A DNA stretch of 64,000 nt from Cryobacterium soli. Lineage in GTDB: Bacteria; Actinomycetota; Actinomycetes; Actinomycetales; Microbacteriaceae. The translations under genes were made by a program, and so were the position numbers. A model generated the notes under the pieces. It saw only the letters and a program-made list of their open reading frames with translations. It ran no database searches and was not told where the DNA came from. The DNA is taken from assembly GCF_003611035.1 (NCBI RefSeq), contig NZ_CP030033.1:3844001-3908000 (forward strand), read 5' to 3'. This document shows positions 1,338-16,346 of this stretch, piece by piece; position 1 is the first letter of the stretch; the number at the start of each line of letters is the position of its first letter.

Positions 1338-2321
1338 TTAGAAAATTGAGTGGAGCGTCACGTAGGTGAGCAGGACCGCGCACAGCCCACCAAAAATGGA
1401 GAGACTATGTCCCCACCGAACATAGGTGTCTTGGTGTCGCTGGCCCTGGTAAGAGTCGGCAACGGCGTGTAGAAAGAATCCCACGAGAGAAACGGTGGCA
1501 GCCCACAATGCAAGACTCGCGGTGACTAGACCCGAAATATCAAGGCTGATCATCACATTTGTTGCGCCGACGAGGGCTAATAAGATGACAGCCGCGAGTA
1601 GCCAGAGCCTGTGCTTGAAGGCGAGGCGCTTAATCCCTGTGTATGGATACCTTCTCTGCAGAGTGAGACGATCCGTCTCGGACGCTACCACCTGACTTGG
1701 ATTCTGCGCGTCTCTGTTCGCGAAGTCAGGCGGTGTTGCTATCTCCGACCACGTAGACCCGAGCTTGTCCTCGTGCTTCAGGAAGAGGAGGTACTGCCGT
1801 GTGTGCAGACGAAGAACGAACGACTTCCACGCGCCGCCGTCGTCGATGCCTAGACTCTCGCCGTATGCGTTGCGAAACTGAATTACGTTTCCGACGATCT
1901 CATCGAGATTCCACGTAAGGAAGCCGGATTTCTTTGTCTCCCATTGCCATCTCCATGGTTCGCGATGGCGGCTCGACAGAGGCTTTCTGGCGTCGCGACT
2001 GATTTTTCTATCAACCTTCCTAGGGCTGTCCGGTTTGGCGTGCACTTGCGCCACATTGTCTACCCGTTCCACGCACCAATAAAGCTGAAAGTACGCGCGG
2101 ATCAATGTGGCCCTGTGCGAAACGTCGGGCACCGAACACGAATATAGGGCAGTGGCGATCGTGTCGCGTGCTTCGGCCACTTCGCCTGTTGTTAGCTCTC
2201 GGTGGATATCCGCAAGCGCTTTCTGCTTTTCTCGCTTGCGAGTGCCTAGCATGTAAAAGCCTGCGACGACGGCTATTGCGACCGGAGTTGCTGCTCCAAT
2301 CCATGAAACAACCTCGTCCAC
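1338..2321 (-). CDS. Four-transmembrane protein of unknown function (island orphan)
   Basis: A 327-residue protein I do not recognise. It has one hydrophobic segment near the N-terminus (about residues 7-25) followed by a basic stretch RKREKQK, a long soluble middle of about 200 residues, and three hydrophobic segments at the C-terminus (about 235-257, 265-290 and 307-327). This predicts an inner-membrane protein with a central cytoplasmic domain. The ATG at 2321 is followed at once by the first membrane helix, which supports the start. It lies alone and divergent from the defence operon, and its AT-richer codon use matches that operon. Membrane proteins of this plan can be effectors in defence islands, but nothing in the sequence proves that role. 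Confidence 0.65.
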   Translation of the reverse strand: MDEVVSWIGAATPVAIAVVAGFYMLGTRKREKQKALADIHRELTTGEVAEARDTIATALYSCSVPDVSHRATLIRAYFQLYWCVERVDNVAQVHAKPDSPRKVDRKISRDARKPLSSRHREPWRWQWETKKSGFLTWNLDEIVGNVIQFRNAYGESLGIDDGGAWKSFVLRLHTRQYLLFLKHEDKLGSTWSEIATPPDFANRDAQNPSQVVASETDRLTLQRRYPYTGIKRLAFKHRLWLLAAVILLALVGATNVMISLDISGLVTASLALWAATVSLVGFFLHAVADSYQGQRHQDTYVRWGHSLSIFGGLCAVLLTYVTLHSIF

Positions 2322-2865
2322 TGTTCCCCCTTGTTAGCACCCTGAACCTAGCAGGCTGTTGCGCGCCTTCGCGCCCAAGTCGAAGTGGCCCCGCGGTGCT
2401 CGTGAGGCTCGCAGGAAACATTGAAACGGACTCCCCTAAAGCGACGGTTTGGTGAAGAGACCGCCGACCATTCACGACTGCACGGGCACCGTCTGAGGAC
2501 AATCGCAATCGCGGCCGGGCGAAACGTGAAAGCTCAGTGAGCGCCCGCGTCTCAGGTGGGTCGACACGCGTAGGGCGCTGACCTCGGCATTGTGCTGGTT
2601 CGCTCCGGTAGCATCGGGAAGGCTGGCCTACTCGGGCCAAGCGAAGCAGACGGGGGCGTCGTGACCAAGCCGTGGCTATCCGCAGATGACTCTGCTGCCC
2701 GTAATGAAGCCCATAGTCGCACCGCCCGCACCTGTGTCGCCAAGAAAAGCCAACTAGTTCGGAGAAGCGCCCGCCGGCGCGAGTTCCAGACCGCCACGTC
2801 GGACGACTGGGTAGGCGCCGACTGCGCCACCAAGTCGGGCCGTGACGAGGCAGGGGTCTGACAGC
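2322..2865. other. Divergent intergenic region upstream of the defence operon
   Basis: About 540 bases between the divergent membrane-protein gene and the helicase gene. Short frames exist on both strands but overlap, lack ribosome sites and show no recognisable protein, so I call no gene. The region should contain the promoters of both flanking transcription units. The last bases carry AGGGG nine bases before the TTG at 2866, the likely ribosome site of the helicase. Confidence 0.4.
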
Positions 2866-5800
2866 TTGCGCATCATCAACAACGTTACCGATCTGCTCGG
2901 AGACGACCTCAAGGCCGAGATCACCTCGGCCTCCAAAGTTCGCATCGCCGCATCCACCTTCTCGATTTTCGCGTTCGAGGCGCTCCGCAAAGAACTTGAG
3001 CACGTATCTGAGTTGCAGTTCATTTTCACCTCGCCCTCCTTCGCGACGCAGGAAGTCACGGATAAACTGCGCAAAGACCGACGAGAGTTCTTCATCCCGG
3101 AGGGGAATGCAGAATCTAGCCTGTATGGCAGTGAGTTCGAGATAAGACTCCGCAACAAGCTCACCCAGCGCGCTATCGCCAAAGAGTGCGCCGATTGGGT
3201 GCGCCGCAAGGTGACCTTTAGATCCAACGCAACAGGAAACCCGATGCAGCCCTTCGCAGCGGTCGACGATGGTGCGGCGTACTTCCCGATCCAGGGTTTC
3301 ACAACGACCGATTTGGGGTACGAAAGTGGCCCCGCCGTCTCAAATGTTGTTACCAAGTTCGAAGGGCCGGCCGAGACACAGCAGTTCCTCGACTTGTTTG
3401 ACCAAATCTGGAACAACACCGGCCAAGTCCGCAACGTCACTCAAGCGGTCTACGAGCACATAGCGAGCGTGTACGCGGAGAACTCACCCGCGCGTATCTA
3501 TTTCCTAATTCTCTACAACGTGTTCGCTGATTTCCTTGAGGACATCAGCGAAGATGTATTGCCGAACGACCGTACTGGTTACCAGGAGACGAAAATTTGG
3601 CAGAGCCTCTACAACTTCCAGCGCGATGGCGCCACCGGCATCATCAACAAGCTAGAGACTTACAACGGTTGCATACTTGCCGACTCGGTGGGTCTTGGAA
3701 AGACTTTCACCGCATTGGCAGTGATCAAGTATTACGAGCTGCGCAACAAGTCGGTGCTGGTCCTTTGCCCAAAGAAGCTTGCCGAGAACTGGACCAACTA
3801 CAACGCCAACCTCACCACCAACGTTTTCGCGTCCGATCGATTCAACTACGACGTCCTGGCTCACACAGACCTGTCGCGTACGAGCGGCGAGTCGCTTGGC
3901 TTGCGATTGGATCGAGTCAATTGGGGCAACTACGACCTAGTTGTGATCGATGAATCGCACAACTTCCGAAATGCCGACTACGCCGAGGAGAAGGAATCGC
4001 GTTACCAGCGCCTCATGAGGAAAGTCATGCGCGAGGGCGTAAAGACGAAGGTGCTGATGCTCTCGGCAACTCCGGTGAACAACCGGTTTAACGATCTGAA
4101 GAACCAGCTCCAGCTCGCCTACGAGGGTGAGTCGGAGAACCTAGCTCAGCACCTTAATCTGTCCACAACCGTGGAGAAGGTCTTCTCTGACGCACAGCGG
4201 GTATTCAACGAGTGGTCAAAGCTGGGACCCGAGCAGCGTACGGCCGATCGCATCCTTCAGATGCTCGACTTCGACTTCTTCGAACTACTTGACGCAGTTA
4301 CCATCGCTCGCTCCCGCAAGCACATCCAAGCGTTCTACGACACATCCGAGATCGGCGCGTTCCCGGAGCGCCGCCCTCCGTTGTCGATCCGTGAACCGCT
4401 CACTGATCTACCAGATGTCCCGGGGTTCAACGAGATTTTCGCGCAGCTGCAAGAACTCACGCTAGCCGTCTACACGCCGCTGGCGTATGTGTTCCCGAGC
4501 AGGCTTTTCAAATACGAGGACCTCTACAACGTCACTACCGGAAACGCCCGGTCCAACCTCGGACAGGCCGGCCGCGAGCAGGGTCTCAAGAAGCTCATGA
4601 CGGTTAACCTGCTCAAACGGTTGGAAAGCTCAGTCGAGGCCTTCCGTCTGACGCTCGTGAAGATTGAGCAGGCGGTGGATACAAAGCTCCGGCGTTTGTC
4701 GGCTCACAACGGTCACTTGACCGATGACCTCGATCTGACTGACTTCGATTTTGATGTCGACGATGAAGATGACGCCAATATTGAAGCGATTTCTTTCGGT
4801 GAGAAGATCAAGATCGACCTCAACGACATTGACATCGAATCCTGGCAACGCGACCTCTGGAATGACCGGGAGACGCTTCGAGAGCTGCTCGATGAGATGC
4901 GCAAGGTCACCCCAGACAACGACCGCAAGCTCAGCAAGCTCAAGCAGCTCATTGAGAACAAGGCGCGTCAGCCAATCAACGATGGCAACCGCAAAGTCCT
5001 AGTGTTCTCGGCGTTCGCTGACACCGCCAACTATCTCTATCGCGAGCTTGCCGACGTGCTCGTTGCAGTAGGGCTGGAGGCGGCCGTTATTACAGGTGGC
5101 AGCCATGGGGCAAAGACCACGCTCGGAACCGGGTTCGACTTCCAGCAGGTCATGGCGATGTTTTCACCACGATCGAAACAGCGACACCTAACCATGCAAG
5201 ACGAGACTCGTGACCTCGACGTGCTCATTGGCACCGACGTGATCAGCGAGGGCCAGAACCTCCAGGACTGCGACTACCTGATCAACTACGACATCCACTG
5301 GAACCCGGTCCGTATTATCCAACGCTTCGGCCGCATTGATCGCATCGGTTCTCACAATGCTCAGATACAGCTCGTGAATTTCTGGCCCGACATCTCCCTC
5401 GATGAATACATCAATCTCAAGGAGCGCGTCGAGAACCGCATGGTGATCGCAGACCTCGCCAGCACCGCAGATGACAATCTTCTCACCCTCGAAAACCCCG
5501 ATGCGGCGTTCCGTAGAGAGCAGCTCCGCAAACTCCAAGACGACGTCATCGAGCTGGAGGACGTGCGAGCCGGGGTCTCCATTACGGACCTTGGGCTAAA
5601 CGACTTTCGAATGGATCTGCTCGGCTACGTCAAGGTATATGGTGACCTCGCCACGGCTCCCAAAGGACTACACGCCGTCGTGCCGGCCGACCCGGGTGCA
5701 GGTCTCGTGCCGGGGGTGATCTTCGCGCTGCGCAACGTAAACGCCGATGAGAAATTCAACCGAGGCAACCGACTCCACCCGCACTACCTTGTCTACCTCG

Positions 5801-6138
5801 ATGATCAGGGACAAGTTGTCGCCGACCACACGGAAGCCAAGCACCTACTTGATCTGATCCGGGCAGGGTGCCGCCCCTTCGATGAGCCCGTCGCCGGCGT
5901 TGTTCAAACCTTCAACGTCGCGACTGGCGAGGGCTCCCAAATGGGGCAGTACTCTTATCTGCTCACCAAGGCGATCCATTCGATGATCGACGTTACCGAG
6001 GAACGCGATATCGATAGCCTCTTTACCGGAGGTCAAACCTCGGCCCTGACCCAAACGATCACGGGACTCGATGACTTCGAATTGACGGCGTTTGTCGTTG
6101 TCGTCGACCCCGTCCAAGCGATGGAAGTCAATGGTTGA
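2866..6138 (+). CDS. SNF2-family helicase with N-terminal PLD-like domain
   Basis: About 1090 residues. Numbering from an upstream in-frame GTG at 2842, the N-terminal 160 residues resemble phospholipase D-like modules of SNF2-type defence helicases. Helicase motif I (GLGKT) falls near 283-287, the DESH box near 369-372, SATP near 407-410, TDVISEGQNLQ near 797 and QRFGRIDRIGS near 826, so both RecA lobes look intact. I prefer TTG at 2866 because AGGGG lies nine bases upstream and the protein then starts RIINN, as relatives commonly do. It should be an ATP-dependent DNA translocase. Its stop overlaps the DUF4391 gene start, and Mod and Res follow with almost no gaps, so all four are probably one operon and one defence complex. 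Confidence 0.88.
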   Translation: MRIINNVTDLLGDDLKAEITSASKVRIAASTFSIFAFEALRKELEHVSELQFIFTSPSFATQEVTDKLRKDRREFFIPEGNAESSLYGSEFEIRLRNKLTQRAIAKECADWVRRKVTFRSNATGNPMQPFAAVDDGAAYFPIQGFTTTDLGYESGPAVSNVVTKFEGPAETQQFLDLFDQIWNNTGQVRNVTQAVYEHIASVYAENSPARIYFLILYNVFADFLEDISEDVLPNDRTGYQETKIWQSLYNFQRDGATGIINKLETYNGCILADSVGLGKTFTALAVIKYYELRNKSVLVLCPKKLAENWTNYNANLTTNVFASDRFNYDVLAHTDLSRTSGESLGLRLDRVNWGNYDLVVIDESHNFRNADYAEEKESRYQRLMRKVMREGVKTKVLMLSATPVNNRFNDLKNQLQLAYEGESENLAQHLNLSTTVEKVFSDAQRVFNEWSKLGPEQRTADRILQMLDFDFFELLDAVTIARSRKHIQAFYDTSEIGAFPERRPPLSIREPLTDLPDVPGFNEIFAQLQELTLAVYTPLAYVFPSRLFKYEDLYNVTTGNARSNLGQAGREQGLKKLMTVNLLKRLESSVEAFRLTLVKIEQAVDTKLRRLSAHNGHLTDDLDLTDFDFDVDDEDDANIEAISFGEKIKIDLNDIDIESWQRDLWNDRETLRELLDEMRKVTPDNDRKLSKLKQLIENKARQPINDGNRKVLVFSAFADTANYLYRELADVLVAVGLEAAVITGGSHGAKTTLGTGFDFQQVMAMFSPRSKQRHLTMQDETRDLDVLIGTDVISEGQNLQDCDYLINYDIHWNPVRIIQRFGRIDRIGSHNAQIQLVNFWPDISLDEYINLKERVENRMVIADLASTADDNLLTLENPDAAFRREQLRKLQDDVIELEDVRAGVSITDLGLNDFRMDLLGYVKVYGDLATAPKGLHAVVPADPGAGLVPGVIFALRNVNADEKFNRGNRLHPHYLVYLDDQGQVVADHTEAKHLLDLIRAGCRPFDEPVAGVVQTFNVATGEGSQMGQYSYLLTKAIHSMIDVTEERDIDSLFTGGQTSALTQTITGLDDFELTAFVVVVDPVQAMEVNG

Positions 6139-6796
6139 TCTGCTGTATAGGTGGCCTGCCGCAGCCAAATTCGGCGGCCGTGTGCCCAAGGACAAGTTCT
6201 ACGAGTACGGCAATGTGAGCTCCGCTGTGCGTGAGAAATTCGTGTCCGAGGTTCAGCGCATTACCTGGGCCTACAAGCTTGCCGAATCTACTATCAACCT
6301 CCACGGCAGCACGAGCGTGCCTGAGTTACAGGTCTTTCAAATTGACACCAAGATCGGCGATGTCGCCGATCAGGTCCTGTCCGCGATCGACAGGGCGATT
6401 CAATACCCGATTATCTTCGAGATCACGCGAGCAACCTCCGGGGAACGGCAGGTCCGGATGGTCGCAGCATACAAGCAGCTCAGCGCGGGTGCTTTGAAAC
6501 TTAGCGCCTACTACTCGACCGGTTGGCACCCCGCCGATGCAGAACGGCAGTCGCTCCCTGCAGCAATTAGCTTGCCTGCCCTTTACTCGGCGATCCTGGT
6601 GTCGCTGACGCCGGTGACGGTACGGCACGATGAGGAGATGCCAGAGCTGGCCAACAGGCTGGTAACCGTGCGGAAGCTCGAACGCGAGATCACCGTCCTA
6701 GAGCGCAAGCTCCGAACCGAGCCGCAGCTCAACCGCAAAATTGAGCTGCGCCGCGCCCTCAAAACTAGACAACAAGAACTCGAACAGCAGAGGTAA
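6131..6796 (+). CDS. DUF4391 domain protein
   Basis: A 221-residue protein matching the DUF4391 family, which is usually found between a helicase and a type III-like methyltransferase. The ATG at 6131 lies inside the end of the helicase gene (an overlap of eight bases), giving translational coupling, and the protein then begins MVDLLYRWP with the PAAAKFGG stretch typical of the family. The N-terminal 150 residues look like a compact alpha/beta domain; the last 60 are highly charged and predicted helical or coiled coil (ELEREITVLERKLRTEP region). Its biochemical role is unknown; the coiled-coil tail and fixed gene order suggest it bridges the helicase to Mod or Res. The function is inference, the family assignment is fairly firm. 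Confidence 0.8.
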   Translation: MVDLLYRWPAAAKFGGRVPKDKFYEYGNVSSAVREKFVSEVQRITWAYKLAESTINLHGSTSVPELQVFQIDTKIGDVADQVLSAIDRAIQYPIIFEITRATSGERQVRMVAAYKQLSAGALKLSAYYSTGWHPADAERQSLPAAISLPALYSAILVSLTPVTVRHDEEMPELANRLVTVRKLEREITVLERKLRTEPQLNRKIELRRALKTRQQELEQQR

Positions 6797-6799
6797 CCC

Positions 6800-8665
6800 G
6801 TGGAGAAACTACGCATGACGTCGGCAGACTTGACCGACGCCAATATCGACAGGCTCGCCGTCCTGTTCCCGACCGTCGTGACTGAGTCGATTGACGCTGA
6901 CGGTAACGTCCAGATGGCCGTCGATTTTGATCTGTTGCGCCAGGAGCTCTCCGACCACGTTGTTGAGGGGCCTCAGGAGCGTTATCGGCTCGATTGGCCG
7001 GGCAAGCGAGCAGCCGCGTTCGCTGCCAACGCGCCCATCGCCAAGACTCTACGTCCGGCCCGTGAGGAGTCCGTCGACTTCGACTCCACTAAGAATCTGT
7101 TCATTGAGGGTGACAATCTGGATGTGCTCAAGCTGCTCCAGGAGTCTTACCTCGGCAAGGTCAAGTTAATCTACATCGACCCGCCATACAACACTGGACG
7201 CGACTTCATATACGACGACGATTTCGCGGAGACAACAAGTGAATATCTCCTTCGTTCTGGCCAAGCAGACGAAGAAGGACAAAGACTGGTTGCGCTGACC
7301 GACAGCGATGGTAGATATCACTCTGACTGGCTGAGCATGATGTATCCCCGGCTCAAGCTCGCGCGCAATCTGCTTCGCGAAGACGGTGTCATTTTCATCT
7401 CGATCGACGATCACGAAGTCGACAATCTGCGAAAGGTCTGCGCGGAAGTGTTCGGAGCACAAAACTTCGTGGCACAAATCATCTGGCAGAAAGTTTTCTC
7501 TCCAAAGAACTCAGCGCAGTGGTTCTCAGAGGACCACGACTACATTCTGGTGTTCTCCAGAGACAAGTCTCGGTGGGTGCCCAACTCGCTCCCAAGAACC
7601 GACGAGATGGACGCCCGGTATAAGAATCCTGACGAGGACCACAGAGGGCCATGGACCTCGTCAGACCTTGCTGCTCGCAACGCCTACGCTGCCGGACTGT
7701 ATCCGATCACGACGCCAAGCGGACGGGTCATTGATGGTCCTCCACGCGGACGATACTGGGGTATCTCGGCGGCACGGTTCAAAGAACTTGATGCTGATGG
7801 TCGCATTTGGTGGGGCGAGGCAGAAGACAATATGCCGCGATTGAAGCGGTTCCTTTCAGAGATGTCGGGCGGACGTACCCCGCAGACTCTCTGGCCCTAC
7901 TCTGAGGTTGGGCATACTCAAGAAGCCAAGAAGACGCTTCTCAAGTATGTGCCGTTTGAGCACACGGAGAATGTGCTGAACTCGGTGAAGCCCGTCCGAC
8001 TGATCCAGCGCATCCTTCAACTTGCTACGTCACCTGACACGCACGATATCGTTCTCGACTTCTTCAATGGCAGCGGCACAACACCTCACGCTGTATTCGC
8101 TCAGAACGCTGCAGATGGAGGGAACCGCCGATTCATCTCTGTGCAGATCGATGAGCCGCTTCCGGTTCCTGAGCCTACGTTCAACTCGATTCTCGGGATG
8201 AGTCTTGAACGTATCAAGAACGTCGCTGCTGAACTCGCCACGGGGATTTCCGTCGGTGACCTCGGGTACCGATTGGCACGTGTGGACACGACGAACATGG
8301 CAGATGTATTGCGCGTGCCTGATGACACGAACCAGCTCGCGCTCGACTCGCTTGAGGGCAGCATAAAGCCAGGTCGCCGTGGCGAGGATTTGTTGTTCCA
8401 AGTTTTGCTGGACTGGGGCCTTGAGCTCACGGCGCCCATAAGCGTCGAGCAGATTGAGCGGAACGAGGTGTTCGTCGTCGAGGATGGTGCCCTGATCGCC
8501 TGCTTCGACGAGCAGGTCAGTCCAGGGGTCGTTCATTCGATCGCGAAGCGTCAGCCGCTGCGCGCTGTGTTTCGCGATTCCGGCTTCGCCTCGGATGACG
8601 CGCGGATCAACGCGGAGCAGGTCTTCCGTGAGGTGTCTCCGGCGACCGACGTGAAGGCGATCTGA
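6800..8665 (+). CDS. Type III-like site-specific DNA methyltransferase (Mod)
   Basis: A 621-residue beta-class amino-methyltransferase. The catalytic motif IV DPPY is at residues 127-130 within IYIDPPYNTG; a target-recognition region of about 250 residues follows; the AdoMet-binding motif I (DFFNGSGTT) is near residues 419-427, giving the order expected of the beta class. DPPY enzymes of this type usually make N6-methyladenine. Together with Res just downstream it should form a Mod-Res pair whose methylation protects host sites. The start is GTG at 6800, three bases after DUF4391; ATG at 6815 behind GGAGAAA is an equally good alternative. All core motifs are intact. Confidence 0.9.
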   Translation: MEKLRMTSADLTDANIDRLAVLFPTVVTESIDADGNVQMAVDFDLLRQELSDHVVEGPQERYRLDWPGKRAAAFAANAPIAKTLRPAREESVDFDSTKNLFIEGDNLDVLKLLQESYLGKVKLIYIDPPYNTGRDFIYDDDFAETTSEYLLRSGQADEEGQRLVALTDSDGRYHSDWLSMMYPRLKLARNLLREDGVIFISIDDHEVDNLRKVCAEVFGAQNFVAQIIWQKVFSPKNSAQWFSEDHDYILVFSRDKSRWVPNSLPRTDEMDARYKNPDEDHRGPWTSSDLAARNAYAAGLYPITTPSGRVIDGPPRGRYWGISAARFKELDADGRIWWGEAEDNMPRLKRFLSEMSGGRTPQTLWPYSEVGHTQEAKKTLLKYVPFEHTENVLNSVKPVRLIQRILQLATSPDTHDIVLDFFNGSGTTPHAVFAQNAADGGNRRFISVQIDEPLPVPEPTFNSILGMSLERIKNVAAELATGISVGDLGYRLARVDTTNMADVLRVPDDTNQLALDSLEGSIKPGRRGEDLLFQVLLDWGLELTAPISVEQIERNEVFVVEDGALIACFDEQVSPGVVHSIAKRQPLRAVFRDSGFASDDARINAEQVFREVSPATDVKAI

Positions 8666-8670
8666 TCGGG

Positions 8671-11600
8671 ATGAAACTACAGTTCAAGGTCCAGAAGTAC
8701 CAGACCGACGCTGTTGACTCGGTCGTCGAGGTTTTCGAGGGTCAACCCAAGCGCGACGGCATGTCCTATCGAATCGACCCAGGCAAGGTGATGCCTGCTT
8801 CGAACCCGACGCTGTTCGAGACGAACGATACGCCGGAATCTGGTCTTCGGAATGCAGACATTGCGCTCTCCTCTGCTCAACTGTTGGAGAACGTTCATAA
8901 AGTTCAGCGGTCTCGTAACCTCCCGCTTTCAACGACACTTATCGACAGCAAGGCGGCCCCCGGGGCTCCGAACCTGGACGTTGAGATGGAGACGGGAACG
9001 GGCAAGACATACGTGTACATCAAGACGATCCTGGAACTGCACAAGCGGTACGGCTGGTCGAAGTACATCATTGTTGTGCCCTCAGTTGCGATCCGTGAGG
9101 GCATCAAGAAATCCCTCGATGTGACAGCGGAACACTTTCAGCAGCACTATGGGACGAAGCCACGGTCGTTCATCTACAACTCCTCCCAATTGCACGAGAT
9201 CGAGCGGTTCAGCTCCGATGCTGGGGTGCAGGTGATGATCATCAACATTCAGGCATTCAACGCGACAGGTAAAGACAACCGCCGTATCTACGATGTGCTC
9301 GATGACTTCCAGTCGCGGCGCCCGATCGACGTAATAGCGGCGAATCGACCTATCGTCATCATTGACGAGCCGCAGAAGATCGGCGCTGCGAAGTCCCTCG
9401 ATGCTCTCTCGCGCTTCCACGGCCTCATGATGTTGCGCTACTCGGCCACTCACAAAGTTGAGCACACAAGGGTGCACCGCCTCGATGCCTTGGATGCATA
9501 CAACCAGAGGCTTGTGAAGAGAATTGCGGTGCGAGGCATCACAGTAAAGGGGCTAGCCGGATCCACCGCGTACCTATACCTGGTTGCGATCGAGATCGCC
9601 AAGGGTGCCAAGCCGCGTGCTCGGATTGAGCTCGAAGTTCAAACCCAGACTGGCATCAAACGTCAGTTCAAGCGCCTCGACGTCGGTGCGAACCTGCACG
9701 ATGTGTCGAACGGCATTGAAGCCTACAAGGGCTTGTTCATCACGGAGATCGACGCGAGCCGTGACGTGATCGAGCTGAGTAACGGTGACGTTGTGATCGC
9801 CGGACAGCTTGCCGACCGCGACGTCACGGAGGAGACGAAGCGGCGCATCCAAATTCGCGAAGTCATTCGCGCCCACCTCGATAAAGAGCGTGCGCTGTTC
9901 AGCCAAGGCATCAAGGTACTTTCGCTATTCTTCATTGATGAGGTCGCCAAATACCGTGACTACGGCCGCGAAGACACCCTCGGCGACTACGCCCGCATAT
10001 TCGAGGTGGAATTTGCCGCGATTCGCGACGAGGTGCTCGGCGAGCTGGCGATCGATGACGTAACTGGGGAATTCCAGCAGTATTTACGGCGCGATGAGAT
10101 TCGACGGATACACGAAGGCTACTTCTCGATCGACAAGAAATCCAAGCATCAAGTGGACGGCAACGTCTCCGGCCGTGGCGACGACAAGGGCCAGTCGAAC
10201 GACATTGATGCGTACGACTTGATATTGAAGGACAAAGAGCGACTGCTCTCGCTCACAGAGCCAGTCCGATTCATCTTCTCCCACTCCGCGCTACGCGAGG
10301 GCTGGGACAATCCCAACGTGTTCGTTATGGGCATGCTCAAGAAGAGTGATAACTCTATCTCCCGGCGCCAAGAGATCGGCCGTGGCCTGCGACTCTCCGT
10401 AGACCAGCACGGCATCCGCATGGACAACCCCGCGACTGTACACGATATTAACGAGCTGACGGTGGTGACTGATGAGTCGTACACCAACTTTGTTGCCGGT
10501 CTTCAGAGGGAGATTTCGGAGTCCCTTGCTGGCCGACCACGCAAGGCAACCCCCGAGTACTTCGTTGGCAAGACTCTTGAGGATCTTCCAACCGGAACCA
10601 TTCACGCGATCACGCTAGATGAGGCAAAACAACTTCAGCACTGGTTGACAATTAATGCGTTTATCGACTACGAGCAGCACCTCACCGACAAGTGGCTCGG
10701 TCGCGCCGAATTGACTGAGATGCCCGAGCTACCAGCCTCGCTGCAGCCGTATTTTTATCAGGTTGGCGAACTAATCGACGCTCTCCACGTCGCGATGCCG
10801 GAGATCACCGATGGCCGCAAGCCAAAGAGGATCCCGCTCAACGAGGCGAACTTCGCGCGGAAGGAGTTCCAGACGCTGTGGGGCCGGATTAACCGTAAGG
10901 CGGTCTACCAAGTCGAGTTTGACTCAGACGAGCTCATCCTCGAGTCGATTAGGTACCTGGATAAGCACCTGAAGGTCGCCGCGATGCAGTACGTCATCCG
11001 GGCAGGGCAGCAGCGCGAGAAGTTGGAGGCTGACGACCTCGCCGGCGGCTCGGGGTTCGCGGTGTCGTCCACACAGACTCACACTGAGACCGTTAGTGCG
11101 GGATCGCAAGTGAAGTACGACTTGCTTGGTGAGATCGCCGAGAAGACCCAGCTCACCCGTCGTACGGTTGCCGCGATCTTGCGAGGCGTGGCGCCGGGCA
11201 CGTTTGGAAAGTTCCGGCTCAATCCGGAGCAGTTCATCACCGAGGCCGCGAGGTTGATCAACGAGCAGAAGGCGACTGTCATCGTCGAGCACTTGGCGTA
11301 CGACACTCTGGAAGACCGGTTCGACTCAGCGATCTTCACTGAGAATCAAACGGCACAGGACTTCAGTAAGGCGGGCGCCAAGCTCAAGAAGCACGTTTAC
11401 GACTTCGCAGTGACCGATTCGAAAATCGAGCGCGCGTTCGTCACCGAACTCGACACAAGTACGGAAGTCGCTGTTTACGCGAAACTCCCGCGCGGGTTCT
11501 TCATCCCCACTCCGGTCGGTAATTACAACCCAGACTGGGCGATCGCGTTCACAGAAGGCAGCGTCAAGCATGTCTACTTCGTAGCTGAAACCAAGGGCTC

Positions 11601-11751
11601 TCTTTCAACGCTCCAGCTCAAAGGAGTGGAGGACGCCAAGATCGAGTGTGCGCGCAAGTTCTTCGCCTCCATCAGTGAGAAGAACGGCCAAGACGTCTCC
11701 TATGACGTCGTTACCGACTACACAGAGCTGATGCAGCTCGTGACGGCGTAG
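8671..11751 (+). CDS. Type III-like restriction enzyme Res (DEAD/DEAH helicase-nuclease)
   Basis: A 1026-residue restriction subunit. Walker A is METGTGKT (TGTGKT at 108-113), motif II is IVIIDEPQ as usual for type III Res proteins, motif III is LRYSATH, and motifs V-VI lie in EGWDNPNVF and RRQEIGRGLRL. Near the C-terminus PDWAI followed by VYFVAETKG gives a PD-(D/E)xK nuclease signature. The protein should translocate or switch on DNA in an ATP-dependent way and cut it when sites are unmethylated, working with Mod. It starts five bases after the Mod stop and ends the four-gene operon. Length and motifs are complete, so it looks functional. Confidence 0.9.
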   Translation: MKLQFKVQKYQTDAVDSVVEVFEGQPKRDGMSYRIDPGKVMPASNPTLFETNDTPESGLRNADIALSSAQLLENVHKVQRSRNLPLSTTLIDSKAAPGAPNLDVEMETGTGKTYVYIKTILELHKRYGWSKYIIVVPSVAIREGIKKSLDVTAEHFQQHYGTKPRSFIYNSSQLHEIERFSSDAGVQVMIINIQAFNATGKDNRRIYDVLDDFQSRRPIDVIAANRPIVIIDEPQKIGAAKSLDALSRFHGLMMLRYSATHKVEHTRVHRLDALDAYNQRLVKRIAVRGITVKGLAGSTAYLYLVAIEIAKGAKPRARIELEVQTQTGIKRQFKRLDVGANLHDVSNGIEAYKGLFITEIDASRDVIELSNGDVVIAGQLADRDVTEETKRRIQIREVIRAHLDKERALFSQGIKVLSLFFIDEVAKYRDYGREDTLGDYARIFEVEFAAIRDEVLGELAIDDVTGEFQQYLRRDEIRRIHEGYFSIDKKSKHQVDGNVSGRGDDKGQSNDIDAYDLILKDKERLLSLTEPVRFIFSHSALREGWDNPNVFVMGMLKKSDNSISRRQEIGRGLRLSVDQHGIRMDNPATVHDINELTVVTDESYTNFVAGLQREISESLAGRPRKATPEYFVGKTLEDLPTGTIHAITLDEAKQLQHWLTINAFIDYEQHLTDKWLGRAELTEMPELPASLQPYFYQVGELIDALHVAMPEITDGRKPKRIPLNEANFARKEFQTLWGRINRKAVYQVEFDSDELILESIRYLDKHLKVAAMQYVIRAGQQREKLEADDLAGGSGFAVSSTQTHTETVSAGSQVKYDLLGEIAEKTQLTRRTVAAILRGVAPGTFGKFRLNPEQFITEAARLINEQKATVIVEHLAYDTLEDRFDSAIFTENQTAQDFSKAGAKLKKHVYDFAVTDSKIERAFVTELDTSTEVAVYAKLPRGFFIPTPVGNYNPDWAIAFTEGSVKHVYFVAETKGSLSTLQLKGVEDAKIECARKFFASISEKNGQDVSYDVVTDYTELMQLVTA

Positions 11752-11830
11752 GTCCATCTGTGGCCGATTCTCGGAGCGCTTTCAAAGGCTTGCAACCTCG
11801 GTCCAATTGGAGTCGATAGGTGACGATGAA

Positions 11831-11875
11831 CCCGCCGACGCCGCCGAGTTGTCGAACGCGACGGGCGGGATTTTC
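11831..11875 (+). terminator. Possible intrinsic terminator after the helicase-Mod-Res operon
   Basis: CCCGCC (11831-11836) pairs with GGCGGG (11864-11869) and is followed by ATTTTCT. The arms are short and the loop is long, so the call is tentative. Its place 80 bases after the Res stop fits the end of the operon. A further palindrome, TGGAAG-TAG-CTTCCA (11896-11910), lies between it and the next gene and could be an operator. Confidence 0.4.
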
Positions 11876-11983
11876 TAAGCCTCACCCGGTCTCCGTGGAA
11901 GTAGCTTCCAGGAAGCTAGTCCATCCACCGAAGATTCATCGCTCAGGGACATCAGTCCCGGGTCTCTACAAAGATCGGTCATA

Positions 11984-14140
11984 GTGCTCACGCAGGTAAC
12001 GTCCCCACAGCAGGTTTTCTTCTCCCCGCAGCGCTTGGTCGTACCGCTGTTTCAGCGACCATATGTGTGGTCGCGCGAGAATCAATGGGAGCCGCTGTGG
12101 AGCGACGTGACGCGACTTGTGGATGCCATAGCGACTGGTGACAGCGAGGCGACGCACTTTCTCGGCGCAGTCGTCCTTCAGGCGCAAACAACCGCTCTCG
12201 GAGAACTCCCGCAATACACCATCATCGACGGACAGCAACGGTTGACGACTCTGCAGATTTTGCTTGACGCGCTTCATGCTCAGTTAGATGCGCGCGGCTA
12301 TGTCGCACTGGCCGGGCAGGTCCTCGCTCTCGTTGAGAACCCGGAGTCCTTTAGGCAGAAGCCTGCCGACCGATTCAAGGTCTGGCCGACGAACCGGGAC
12401 AGACTGGCATTCGCGGCAGCGATGTCCGCAGTGGCACCGATTGACCATTCCAACCTGCCGGCGGGCCGGCTGGTCGATGCACACGAGTACTTTTTCGTGG
12501 CGATCGGGGAATGGTTGGATGCCGAGCCGGAACAAGTCGATAGACGCGCTGGACTCCTTGTACCAGCCATCATGACGAGGCTCCAGATCGTCTCGATTCA
12601 GTTGCTTTCACACGAGGACGCACAGGAAATCTTTGAAACCCTGAACGCTCGGGGAACACCGCTGACGGCGGCTGACCTGATCAAGAACTTCCTCTTTCAA
12701 CGCCTGGAGAAGGATGCGGAGGCTACTGAGCGCGCCTACCACGCCTATTGGGCGGACTTCGAAACGGCGTTCTGGGAGACCGAGGTCTCTGCCGGACGAA
12801 TCAAGTACGCCAGAAGTTCGTTGTTTCTCACCCAATGGCTAACTGCTAAGACCTTGAAGGAAATCCCTGCGAGAGAGGTCTTCATGCAGTTCAAGCGCTA
12901 CGTGAGCGAGTCTGGCACGGACGTACTATCTCTGGTGCAGTCACTCAGCGCCGCTGCCAATCGCTACAAGGCGTTCACCTTGGGAGCCGCTGCTCGCGAT
13001 GGGGCCCTAAGCCGCCTTGACCTCTTCGTCTACCGGACGAGTACCCTCGACTCCGAAATCGTTAAGCCTCTGCTCATCTGGCTAGGTGAATCGAACCAAG
13101 CGGCGATCTCCGTTGAGGAGAGAAACGGTCTGCTAGATAGTCTGGAGAGTTGGTTCGTGCGTCGGGCGCTCGTTCGGGCACAATCGCAGGGGACCAACAA
13201 GCTGATGCTTGATCTTCTCACCCAGCTGACAAAACGGCCCGCTGGGACCGGAGTTGATGCGGTTGCCCGGACGTTTCTCTCCACCCAGACGTCGAGCATT
13301 GGTTACTGGCCAGACGATGCGGAACTGCGCCGTGAACTAACTGATTTTCAGGCCTACAAGAAGTTCCGGAAAGGGCGCCTTCGAATGGTGCTCGAAGCGA
13401 TCGAAGACCGTCTACGAGGCTTCCCTGACGGCGGCTCCTTCTCCGTGTCGCCGGTGTCTAGGGGCGTATGCACTATCGAGCACATCATGCCCCAGGAATG
13501 GCGCGCAAACTGGAGTGGAGGCGAGGATCCTGAGACCGAGGGGGAGCGAGACAGCCTGGTTCAAACCCTCGGAAACCTGACCTTGGTCACGCAGAGTCTC
13601 AACGCGAGAATGTCGAATGCAGCTTGGTCTGCCGCGAATGGCAAGCGTGCTGCGCTCATCCGACACGACACGTTACTTCTCACGCGAGACGTCGTGCACG
13701 AGCACCCTGAGTCATGGGCGGACGCGGATATTCGAGAACGCACTGAAGGCCTCCTCGAAGCGTTGACCTCCACGTGGCCGGTGCCGGACGGACATCGCGT
13801 TTCGAGTGACCGAGCCGTTGAGCGCGCCCAGTACCGAACCGAGGTCATCGACCTCGTGCGCGCTGGCCTGATCAAGGCGGGAACAACGCTGTATGCAAAG
13901 CCAGCTGCGCATAGAGGGAAGACCGCATCTGTAAACGCGGACGGCACTATTGCCATGGACGGTATCTCTTTTGGAACTCTGAGTGGCGCGGCTCGTCATC
14001 TCTCGGGCGGTGGTGCTGTAGCGGGCTGGAGCTTCTGGACAATTGATGCCGGGTACACGCAAACCATGGCCGACGTTCGAGATCAACTGGCTCTCGGCTC
14101 GAGTACCCTGAGCGACCCCGCCCCTGATCCGCGATCCTGA
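11984..14140 (+). CDS. GmrSD-like type IV restriction protein (DUF262-DUF1524) with RAMA/DUF4357-like tail
   Basis: A 718-residue fused protein. The N-terminal DUF262 (ParB/GmrS-like) half has the hallmark LFQRPYVWS near residue 20 and IIDGQQRLTTLQ near residue 80, the nucleotide-binding segment. The C-terminal DUF1524 half carries the HNH-type motif IEHIMPQEW near residue 500 and LGNLTLVTQSLN further on, as in GmrD nucleases. The last 80 residues (YAKPAAHRGKTASVN to GWSFWTID) resemble the RAMA/DUF4357 module found at the ends of restriction proteins. Such enzymes cut DNA bearing modified bases, typically phage glucosyl-hydroxymethylcytosine. It starts with GTG and has its own upstream gap, so it may be a separate transcription unit from the Mod-Res operon. 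Confidence 0.85.
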   Translation: MLTQVTSPQQVFFSPQRLVVPLFQRPYVWSRENQWEPLWSDVTRLVDAIATGDSEATHFLGAVVLQAQTTALGELPQYTIIDGQQRLTTLQILLDALHAQLDARGYVALAGQVLALVENPESFRQKPADRFKVWPTNRDRLAFAAAMSAVAPIDHSNLPAGRLVDAHEYFFVAIGEWLDAEPEQVDRRAGLLVPAIMTRLQIVSIQLLSHEDAQEIFETLNARGTPLTAADLIKNFLFQRLEKDAEATERAYHAYWADFETAFWETEVSAGRIKYARSSLFLTQWLTAKTLKEIPAREVFMQFKRYVSESGTDVLSLVQSLSAAANRYKAFTLGAAARDGALSRLDLFVYRTSTLDSEIVKPLLIWLGESNQAAISVEERNGLLDSLESWFVRRALVRAQSQGTNKLMLDLLTQLTKRPAGTGVDAVARTFLSTQTSSIGYWPDDAELRRELTDFQAYKKFRKGRLRMVLEAIEDRLRGFPDGGSFSVSPVSRGVCTIEHIMPQEWRANWSGGEDPETEGERDSLVQTLGNLTLVTQSLNARMSNAAWSAANGKRAALIRHDTLLLTRDVVHEHPESWADADIRERTEGLLEALTSTWPVPDGHRVSSDRAVERAQYRTEVIDLVRAGLIKAGTTLYAKPAAHRGKTASVNADGTIAMDGISFGTLSGAARHLSGGGAVAGWSFWTIDAGYTQTMADVRDQLALGSSTLSDPAPDPRS

Positions 14141-14471
14141 GCTAAATGGCGGCATCGACGCTGGCGGCTTTAATCTATAGCACCCACTTCAGGGGCCAAA
14201 AGCGGTGTGATCGACCGCCATGGCTCAGCCGTGGAGTGCAGTGAATCGGCGGCGCTCAACCCATGTCGCTTAGGGAAACGGGCGGGTTCGATCGAACTGG
14301 ACGGTAATGCCGCCTCGGTAGGGGCCTATATATTGGCTATTAGCCAACAGGGTTGGTCAGGCTAGGTGCCGGGCTTTTGCACAGCAATGTGTATTGAGGC
14401 TGAGATCACCAAAGATCGCAGTTGTGGGAGCGTACTTTCAACCCGGCCCAGCCGCCCCCTAGGGAGAAACA
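14141..14471 (+). other. Non-coding leader of the reverse transcriptase with inverted repeats
   Basis: 331 bases with no convincing reading frame. It holds CCATGGCT-C-AGCCGTGG (14218-14234, one G-T mismatch), the palindrome GTTCGATCGAAC (14286-14297) and TTGGCTA-T-TAGCCAA (14333-14347), and ends in AGGGAG (14461-14466), a good ribosome site for the reverse transcriptase. Several defence reverse transcriptases use a structured RNA encoded just upstream, so this is a reasonable place for a template or guide RNA; it may equally hold only a promoter and operators. Confidence 0.4.
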
Positions 14472-16025
14472 TTGTTGCGCGTTTCTGAGCTTGAGCTGGA
14501 CGAGGCATGCGCGAAGCTGATTCGCAAGCATGAACGTTACATGAGGGAGTTGCGAATCGACGACGTCAGGAGGTCTCGAAGACGTACGTCCCCCGCTAAC
14601 GCGCAAGTCCGTCGGCCGACCTACTGGGACGTGGATGCGGGATTCGACCCGTATAAAGTACGGCGAAACGCCAGTTCGATCGTACGTGCAGTCAACTTGG
14701 CGCTGGCGAACCGTGATTACCGCCCACGTCCGCCGATTGCCCACTCCGTTCCAAAGTCGAGCGGAGGAAATCGCGTAGTTTCAGTCTTCCAAATCGTCGA
14801 CTCTTTGGTTTCTCGGATTGCGTACAAGTCTTTGATGACTAAAAATCGCGCTTTAGTAAGCGCGCGATCGTACGCCTATCGGGACGATCTCTCTACGCAT
14901 GACGCCATTCAGTATGTGGCAAGCGAGTTCCGCACGGTTGAACGTATATTCGTTGCTGAGTACGATTTCTCGACATATTTTGACTCAATCAGTCATGAGC
15001 ACCTGCGACAGTCACTGGACCGCCACGGATTCCTGATGACGGGACGCGAACGCGACGTGATCGACGCCTTCCTGGCCACCCCGCTCGAAGAGGAAGCCAC
15101 CTATAATTCCAGAGCCCTACCGAGACTCAGCCAGGTCGGGATCCCGCAAGGCACCTCGATCTCACTTTTTCTGGCGAATGTCGCCGCATGGCAGATGGAC
15201 CGGTCGTTAGAGCGAATTGGGGTTGGCTTCGTAAGATATGCAGATGACACTCTGGTCTGGTCTCGTGACTACGGCCAGATCACTGACGCCGTTAACGTGC
15301 TCAAGGCACAGAGCGCTGAAATTGGCGCAGATCTGAATCCTCACAAGTCCAAAGGCATTCGTCTTTTCACGCCACCAGCTGAACCCTCAGAAATTGCAAG
15401 CACAGACACCGTTAATTTTGTGGGCTACCGTTTCGCTCGCGGCGTGGTGGGGGTTAACGACAGCGTCATTAGGCGGATTAAGGGCCGTGTCCATCAGCTC
15501 GTGTGGGCCAACCTGCTGCAACCGCTTGATCAGGGAACCTTGAATCGGGCGAGAATCGCCCCGCGCTTTGATCGCGATTATGCTGTTCTCCTGGGACAGA
15601 TCCGACGGTACTTGTACGGGAATTTTTCAGAGAGCAAGCTCCGAGAACTCGAGCGGGGGGCTGTCAAAAGAATCCGCTTTCCGGGTATTTTGTCTTACTT
15701 TCCTCTTGCAAACGACGCGCAACAGATGCAAGACCTCGATGGCTGGTTGGCAGACACTCTCTATCAGGCGTTGCGTAAGCGTGCACGACTCGCTAGGGCC
15801 GCGGGAATCTCGGTCCTTCCAATGCCCCACGGACTGTCCAAGGCAGAGCTGCTCGTGGCGTCATCGCTCACGTCAAAGGGAGCTGCGGTCGATCTTCGAG
15901 TGCCGTCAGTCGCCCGATTTATGTCGGTTCTAAATCGAGCGGCTACGGAACACGGACCAAATGTGGTGAGTCGTGGCACAGGCGCAGAGGTCTATCAGTA
16001 CTCCTTTGTGGACTTCGCGTCTTGA
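14472..16025 (+). CDS. Stand-alone reverse transcriptase, probably defence-associated
   Basis: A 517-residue RNA-directed DNA polymerase. Motif A is EYDFSTYFDSI (catalytic Asp near 165), motif B is IPQGTSISLFLANVAA, and motif C is RYADDTLVW (YADD at 256-259), so the catalytic triad is intact. The N-terminal 120 residues precede the fingers; the C-terminal 180 include MQDLDGWLADTLYQALRKR, which recalls the helical region after the thumb in group II-like enzymes, but there is no HNH domain, no intron boundaries and no nitrilase fusion. That points to the unknown-group/abortive-infection class of phage-defence reverse transcriptases rather than a group II intron. I cannot assign a subgroup. The start is TTG at 14472 (or 14475) behind AGGGAG. 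It closes the island, 36 bases before the deoC remnant. Confidence 0.85.
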   Translation: MLRVSELELDEACAKLIRKHERYMRELRIDDVRRSRRRTSPANAQVRRPTYWDVDAGFDPYKVRRNASSIVRAVNLALANRDYRPRPPIAHSVPKSSGGNRVVSVFQIVDSLVSRIAYKSLMTKNRALVSARSYAYRDDLSTHDAIQYVASEFRTVERIFVAEYDFSTYFDSISHEHLRQSLDRHGFLMTGRERDVIDAFLATPLEEEATYNSRALPRLSQVGIPQGTSISLFLANVAAWQMDRSLERIGVGFVRYADDTLVWSRDYGQITDAVNVLKAQSAEIGADLNPHKSKGIRLFTPPAEPSEIASTDTVNFVGYRFARGVVGVNDSVIRRIKGRVHQLVWANLLQPLDQGTLNRARIAPRFDRDYAVLLGQIRRYLYGNFSESKLRELERGAVKRIRFPGILSYFPLANDAQQMQDLDGWLADTLYQALRKRARLARAAGISVLPMPHGLSKAELLVASSLTSKGAAVDLRVPSVARFMSVLNRAATEHGPNVVSRGTGAEVYQYSFVDFAS

Positions 16026-16061
16026 TCGCATGGGCGTCCGGGCATCACGGTTACGTCCTAT

Positions 16062-16346
16062 CTAACGCGCAAGCGACCCACGAATGATGGGCAGGGCGGC
16101 CTCGGCGGCCTTGACGCTGGTGTGGTGCTTGCCGCTGGGGAAGCCGCAGGCCACGGCGACCTTGAGGTCGGCGCCGGCGGGGATGGTGAGTGGCAGCATC
16201 GAGGGGGAGACGCAGACCGAGTAGGTGCCCAGCTCGATGGCTTCGGCGATGAGGGCGGTGACGTCGGCGGCAGTGGCCTCGGGCTTGAGCAGGGTGTGGT
16301 CGATCGTGCGGGCGACGCTGGCGGCGTCGGGGGAGATGGAAGTCAT
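16062..16346 (-). pseudogene. deoC: deoC remnant: N-terminal part of deoxyribose-phosphate aldolase
   Basis: The frame encodes 94 residues, of which roughly the first 85 match the start of DeoC: TIDHTLLKPEATAADV, then SVCVSPSMLPL, then VACGFPSGKHHTSVKAAEAA. DeoC is normally about 220 residues. Similarity stops where ADGADEIDM would be expected, and the frame ends in unrelated PIIRGSLAR and a TAG. The lysine-containing active site is therefore missing. The break coincides with the right edge of the island, so insertion or deletion has cut the gene. It follows transketolase by 11 bases and was probably cotranscribed with it. Confidence 0.85.

Follow-up and report, generated by a model that had tools for sequence, protein, structure and literature searches.

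The locus considered here raises the question of what kind of system is encoded by a lone reverse transcriptase (RT) gene that follows a 331-base gap as the last gene of a low-GC defence island in Cryobacterium soli. An earlier note on the window, the 64,000-nucleotide stretch of DNA analysed here, had proposed a defence-type RT with an adjacent structured RNA of the DRT2 or DRT9 sort, and had left the subgroup unassigned and perhaps new. The DRT9 profile match and the evidence for the stem-loops SL1 and SL2 described below support the proposal of an RT with its own RNA; the subgroup, for its part, can be assigned, as the RT is DRT9 (UG28) by profile, tree and fold, judged on its sequence and its modeled structure. 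Very probably the locus encodes a two-part anti-phage system, in which a structured non-coding RNA (ncRNA) and the RT would together produce protein-primed poly-dA (or A-rich) DNA and cause abortive infection.

The RT is encoded by a 517-aa open reading frame at 14472..16025 (+ strand), which has TTG as its initiation codon and a candidate ribosome binding site AGGGAG (14461–14466, + strand), recognized by eye 5 nt upstream of the TTG. RVT_1 is the sole Pfam domain of the protein, and nothing else in the genome matches RVT_1. Pfam showed neither an HNH nor a maturase or nitrilase domain in the RT, consistent with the earlier description of a stand-alone, fusion-free enzyme. The PADLOC model Drt9 matched with 586.5 bits (E 1.1e-176), aligning RT residues 6–504 to positions 6–484 of the 488 in the profile, and the second-best PADLOC model scored 116.3 bits (E 3.9e-34). 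The top PDB sequence match was 9ioa (E 1.7e-103), a DRT9 complex by its title. Searching the PDB with an AlphaFold model of the RT (pLDDT 86.5, pTM 0.80) returned DRT9 chains as the best six fold matches, with a query TM of 0.81–0.86, and a group II RT as the seventh, at 0.56.

A tree of 52 RTs gave the same answer. It comprised 34 DRT9 rows and 18 others labeled by PADLOC (7 group II-like, 8 retron, 1 UG27 and 2 DRT3), the “group II” rows being those with the generic RT as best PADLOC model, a label given in this analysis. Two sequences were left out: L110_0, which PADLOC did not match at 1e-25, and L113_1, which lacks YxDD. In this quick IQ-TREE reconstruction, in which several outgroup branches are long, the DRT9 clade of 34 rows including the window had an SH-aLRT support of 99, and the group II-like and retron clades had 100 and 98, respectively. 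The window falls in a subclade of 12 rows (SH-aLRT 99) that includes P0023 (Ruania alba), P0017 (Curtobacterium) and P0019 (Sinomonas); its nearest row is P0001, which is 96% identical. The earlier note had named placement among group II introns or retrons as the outcome that would overturn its reading, and the tree instead puts the RT in DRT9.

That the protein is a group II intron RT, a retron RT or a member of an unassigned new class thus has next to no probability. Group II-like similarity does exist, with 130.6 bits to the NCBIfam group II model TIGR04416, but this is below the cut-off of 300, the tree places the RT with neither the group II-like nor the retron rows, and its fold is far closer to DRT9. 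A new RT class is contradicted by the PADLOC profile, the tree and the fold search. The NCBIfam Drt2 equivalog model gave 54.6 bits (cut-off 390). The DRT9 call is one at class level and takes in both UG28 and UG28b. A split into these two groups has been published, with UG28b described as an HMM clade of its own in which a VirE_N domain lies nearby in ∼45% of members (PMC8934634); the island proteins put through Pfam gave no VirE_N match.

The catalytic residues are in place, as the earlier note had read from the YADD and motif A. Across the 31 rows of an alignment (A1), D165 of motif A and Y256-A-D258 do not vary, and D259 is at least 90% conserved, YADD being RT residues 256–259. The C-terminal Y508-Q-Y510 contains the putative priming tyrosines; in the same rows Y508 never varies and Y510 reaches at least 90% conservation. 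A Y-x-Y motif within the last 18 residues is seen in 43/61 translated DRT9 loci, window counted and two further loci left out as too short, and among the 18 loci without it some ends look truncated or shifted. The tails of L003, L005, L008 and L009 have no Y-x-Y. The AlphaFold model contains an N-terminal helix at residues 6–37; residues 502–517, with a pLDDT below 50, include the Y508-Q-Y510 tail.

The gap before the RT gene is predicted by computation to encode a structured ncRNA of the DRT9 type, of ∼115 nt, at 14341..14455 (this and all leader features are on the + strand); the fold and the arm-swap tests described below support it, and both ends are predictions. A putative −10 box of the ncRNA promoter, TATATT, is found at 14329..14334. 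It agrees with a register shared by the actinobacterial leaders, 20/21 of which have TANNNT 10–15 nt 5′ of SL1 (L003, at 19, is the exception). In the window the box stands 14 nt 5′ of the SL1 pairing GCCAAC/GUUGGU and 10 nt 5′ of an alternative SL1; automated selection picked the overlapping pairing AUUAGCC/GGUUGGU. A sigma-70 scan of the leader did not find a full promoter, and Rfam returned no family for 13800–16200 at E up to 1.

In all 21 actinobacterial leaders SL1 is followed, at most three bases on, by GGC or a variant, and the bases from that GGC pair with those directly 3′ of the U template. The window would follow this layout. Its SL1 is the hairpin GCCAAC-AGG-GUUGGU (14343..14357), predicted by the minimum free energy (MFE) fold and matched in Ruania alba by CCCAGC-AGG-GCUGGG. 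The predicted 5′ arm of SL2, GGCU..GCCGGG (14360..14373), and its 3′ arm, CCCGGCCCAGCC (14442..14453), are far apart, and between them the MFE fold has two inner hairpins, UGCACA-GCAA-UGUGUA (14378..14393) and CUGAGAUC...GAUCGCAG (14400..14421). The candidate template UUU (14436..14438, in GUAC-UUU-CAA) closely precedes the SL2 3′ arm, 93 bases from SL1, in the place homologous to the UUUU of relatives; in the MFE fold it sits in a weak hairpin. Another run, UUUU at 14375–14378, was considered as template and rejected, as Ruania does not keep it and it lies on the side of the inner hairpins where no template is expected.

The stretch 14340–14459 folds with −47.8 kcal/mol (z −2.32), a stability equaled by 6/200 shuffles. 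When leaders were aligned with MAFFT and folded with RNAalifold, in a mostly proteobacterial set of 22 or an actinobacterial set of 19, SL1 was the one hairpin recovered, and we therefore used an arm-swap test in place of a covariance model. The leader set numbered 62, out of 73 names (72 loci and the window). Left out were four names that repeated another locus or the window itself (L001, L004, L012, L014), five matches that were partial, distant or disrupted (L038, L048, L063, L065, L066), one short leader (L021) and one whose template was not clear (L034); the U-run was selected by eye in all leaders.

With fixed arms in 21 actinobacterial leaders (L005, a near copy of L003, was omitted and the anchor was set by hand in 6/21), the sum over each leader's own pairing was −383.8, against −282 for swapped arms (sd 14.7; 0/20000 permutations). 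The cognate duplex of the window, −24.3 kcal/mol, was reached by 0/20 swapped 5′ arms and 0/20 swapped 3′ arms. With a free 5′ arm in 59 leaders of several phyla (the 62 without L028, L045 and L052), the sums were −1200 for own and −1015 for swapped arms (sd 22; 0/5000), and the −31.3 of the window was reached by 1/58 other upstream regions and 0/58 other 3′ arms. Many single loci did no better than swaps: L032 was matched by 52/58 and 38/58, L026 by 41 and 43 of 58, and L061, in the fixed-arm test, by 17/20 and 16/20. In SL2, GCCGGG/CCCGGC of the window corresponds to GUCGGG/CCCGAC of Ruania alba. A locus-specific SL2 pairing is supported by these sequence comparisons, in which the arm-swap sums are inflated by leader kinship and GC content. 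A strict descriptor of the layout is satisfied by only 10/62 leaders, the window among them, and also by 38/3000 shuffles of the window's leader and 7/1158 window tiles.

The three inverted repeats that had first drawn attention to the gap do exist where they had been placed (14218–14234, 14286–14297 and 14333–14347), but they do not serve as marks of the RNA. Both 14218–14234 and 14286–14297 are upstream of the predicted RNA start (∼14341), and 14333–14347 shares bases with the −10 box and with the first SL1 strand, and competes with SL1. Plain inverted repeats in the gap are modestly above chance: Watson-Crick stems of at least 6 with loops of up to 3 give three entries at two places, which 7/500 dinucleotide shuffles reach, and stems of at least 7 with G-U allowed give four entries, which 59/500 shuffles reach.

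Judged from the leader sequence, the window RNA appears unusually short for a DRT9 RNA, with ∼115 nt and three U's. Template and RT start are 36 bases apart in the window (with the start as taken here) and 46 in Ruania; in the remaining 60 leaders the distance is 53–89 bases in 59, and L028 has 38. Scanning the leader revealed no terminator-like stem between template and RT; the one terminator-like site found, 14312–14325, is upstream of the predicted RNA. Across the 62 leaders the template has four U's in 48, five in 7 and three in 7, the window included. The other U3 leaders, L003, L005, L010, L015, L054 and L056, have flanks other than those of the window; L003 is nearly a copy of L005, and L010 resembles L015. 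For the window's own subclade, leader DNA came from two genomes and the rest was read back from the proteins P0001, P0002, P0006, P0013 and P0025. The N-terminal extensions of the first four, turned back to codons, are compatible with the U3 stretch of the window and that of P0025 with U4, which is a weak inference, as codons leave the number of U's unfixed.

Template length and stem-loops both matter in the Salmonella system SenDRT9. Its mature RNA is reported as ∼150 nt, without SL6; removing one U (U124) abolished defence, and protection against T5 was lost or reduced when any stem-loop other than SL3 was scrambled (PMC12483538). The same report calls the U-rich stretch universally conserved in DRT9 RNA. 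Since the SenDRT9 stem-loops other than SL3 are essential against T5, the absent terminator stem may matter here.

One alternative that follows from the short template is that the locus is a DRT9 relative in which GUAC-UUU-CAAC, a short C-flanked template, would be copied into an A-rich tandem repeat through A-B-A′ realignment as in DRT10. The U3 is indeed bounded by C, an AC-UUUCA-AC pattern can be read by eye in the window, realignment on a mere 2 nt is described for two DRT10 systems (PMC12632851), and the loss of SenDRT9 defence upon removal of one U points in the same direction. We nevertheless regard this as unlikely, as A-B-A′ patterns of 2 nt are presumably common by chance, the Ruania counterpart of the template region reads ACUUUUCCC, and the six other U3 leaders carry other flanks. 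Slightly less likely again is a retired DRT9, with an intact RT and a decayed RNA, hence the U3 and the missing terminator stem. Neither the RT residues nor the SL2 pairing have been lost, the extensions of P0001 (96%) and P0002 (88% identical) are compatible with GUACUUUCA...CCCGGCCCAGCCGCCCC, although the codons do not fix the U number, and Ruania alba, at 57% RT identity, keeps the window layout, with U4; these observations outweigh the shortness and divergence of the window RNA and the rarity of DRT9 in the genus (1/57 genomes, the window's own), which would suit decay.

We tentatively suggest, as a possibility short of an even chance, that the window represents a compact actinobacterial DRT9 branch, in which the leader is the RNA, the template is U3, control is free of ExoI and the product is poly-dA or an A-rich repeat. 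If there is such a branch, poly-dA may come from the shortest natural template, or the product may be an A-rich repeat.

The surroundings of the RT match the restriction-rich island that had been noted before, with type III restriction-modification, GmrSD and SNF2 helicase genes. The genes at 1338–16025 have a GC content of 55–59%, against 66–72% in the flanking genes measured, and the order is a − strand ORF, SNF2 helicase, DUF4391, type III methyltransferase and restriction subunit, GmrSD-RAMA and RT. The first ORF (1338–2321, − strand, 327 residues) shows hydrophobic stretches by eye and has no Pfam or PADLOC match. At 2842–6796 there is an HKD+Snf2-type helicase (best PADLOC model HKD+Snf2) with an overlapping DUF4391 gene, which directly precedes the type III methyltransferase gene and has no PADLOC match at 1e-5; helicase, DUF4391 and type III genes may form one operon. 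The gene at 11984–14140 encodes a protein in which GmrSD_N and GmrSD_C are joined by a RAMA domain at the C terminus, and by its domains the protein is a putative modification-dependent nuclease with a methylation-linked domain. No SLATT domain was found in the island proteins scanned. Genes 3′ of the island resemble deoC and transketolase by eye, and 16062–16346 has no Pfam match.

Searching a protein set gave 1004 homologues among 8000 scored candidates, the nearest among the best 120 listed being 96% identical. At E ≤ 1e-60, DRT9 was found in 1/57 genomes of the genus, 2/398 of the family, 5/396 of the order and 1/394 of the class, where each count includes the window's own genome and the draws overlap. 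Another sample from the family, of 399 genomes, turned up G000, the window's own genome, and G233 once more. The genus of G134 had DRT9 in 1/60 genomes, with an RT 42% identical (L073), and two further genera chosen blindly had a close relative in 0/5 and 0/16 genomes. Among viral contigs, alignment A1 as query found two relatives of 33–35% identity, both within the leader set, and the window RT alone as query found none. Relatives were present in two plasmid records, and none were found in phages.

The family, the catalytic and priming residues, the predicted fold, the ncRNA with its SL2 pairing and the place of the U template were obtained here; RNA transcription, the hexamer, the poly-dA product and abortive infection we infer by analogy with characterized relatives. 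The ncRNA would fold into SL1 and the long-range SL2 helix, the latter presenting the short U template to the active site of the RT, and the complex of RT and RNA would assemble as a hexamer. A tyrosine of the RT tail would accept the first dAMP, and upon phage infection repeated copying of the U template would give long protein-linked poly-dA or A-rich DNA. This poly-dA would accumulate once phage factors protect it, and the cell would stop or die ahead of phage release. Hexamer, tyrosine priming, repeated U copying, phage-protected poly-dA and abortive infection are all described for relatives (PMC12483538), and protein-primed synthesis by E. coli DRT9 is reported to require Y496/Y498, the counterparts of Y508/Y510 (PMC12489045).

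Control of the product may be different in this host. ExoI is reported to clear the DRT9 product in E. coli, and wild-type SenDRT9 could not be introduced into an sbcB deletion strain (PMC12483538). The ExoI C-terminal domain PF08411 had no match in the window genome, which is 100% complete and in one contig; E. coli, one of the 14 control genomes, did have a match. Because this match is absent, we speculate that another nuclease silences the product in this host or that the compact RNA holds activity low.

The RT family and its mechanism are already published. DRT9 has been described as the first RT in which natural synthesis of a DNA homopolymer was seen (PMC12483538), and members with published tests include those of Salmonella and E. 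coli and PsaDRT9 (PMC12483538, PMC12489045). In a limited look through the open-access literature we found no publication on a compact or U3 DRT9 RNA, and the word “Actinobacteria” was absent from the DRT9 papers checked, in a count of this one phylum name. In the window a candidate template of three U's occurs naturally; in SenDRT9 the laboratory deletion of one U abolishes defence. As the window combines this natural U3 with a host without a PF08411 match, two questions become testable: what template length slippage needs, and what restrains DRT9 without ExoI.

Among known systems, the DRT9 of Ruania alba (L070) is alike in its RT, its compact layout and its SL1 with AGG loop, and its SL2, GGCU..GUCGGG/CCCGACCCAGCC, is the counterpart of that in the window; unlike the window it has a U4 template. 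Five of eight neighboring ORFs have Pfam matches (acetyltransferase, LacI regulator, alpha/beta hydrolase, adenylosuccinate lyase and alginate lyase) and three have none, so that no defence domain was found by Pfam in these eight ORFs. Such metabolic and regulatory neighbors fit a self-sufficient system. SenDRT9 and E. coli UG28 share with the window the RT family, the fold with an N-terminal helix, the YADD, the Y-x-Y and an upstream ncRNA with a U template, as far as described in PMC12483538 and PMC12489045. The window RT is 33–35% identical to the solved DRT9 chains, and its predicted RNA of ∼115 nt compares with 188 nt reported for E. coli and the ∼150 nt of mature SenDRT9; it further differs from both in having U3 and not U4, no terminator stem and a host without a PF08411 match. 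DRT2 likewise combines an RT with a structured RNA upstream (PMC12489045), but the Drt2 model score lies under its cut-off and the query TM is 0.43. DRT10 (UG17), finally, is described as making RNA-templated repeats with protein priming (PMC12632851), and differs in that the UG17 model gives the window RT 83.8 bits, against 586.5 for Drt9, and the scanned island proteins have no SLATT.
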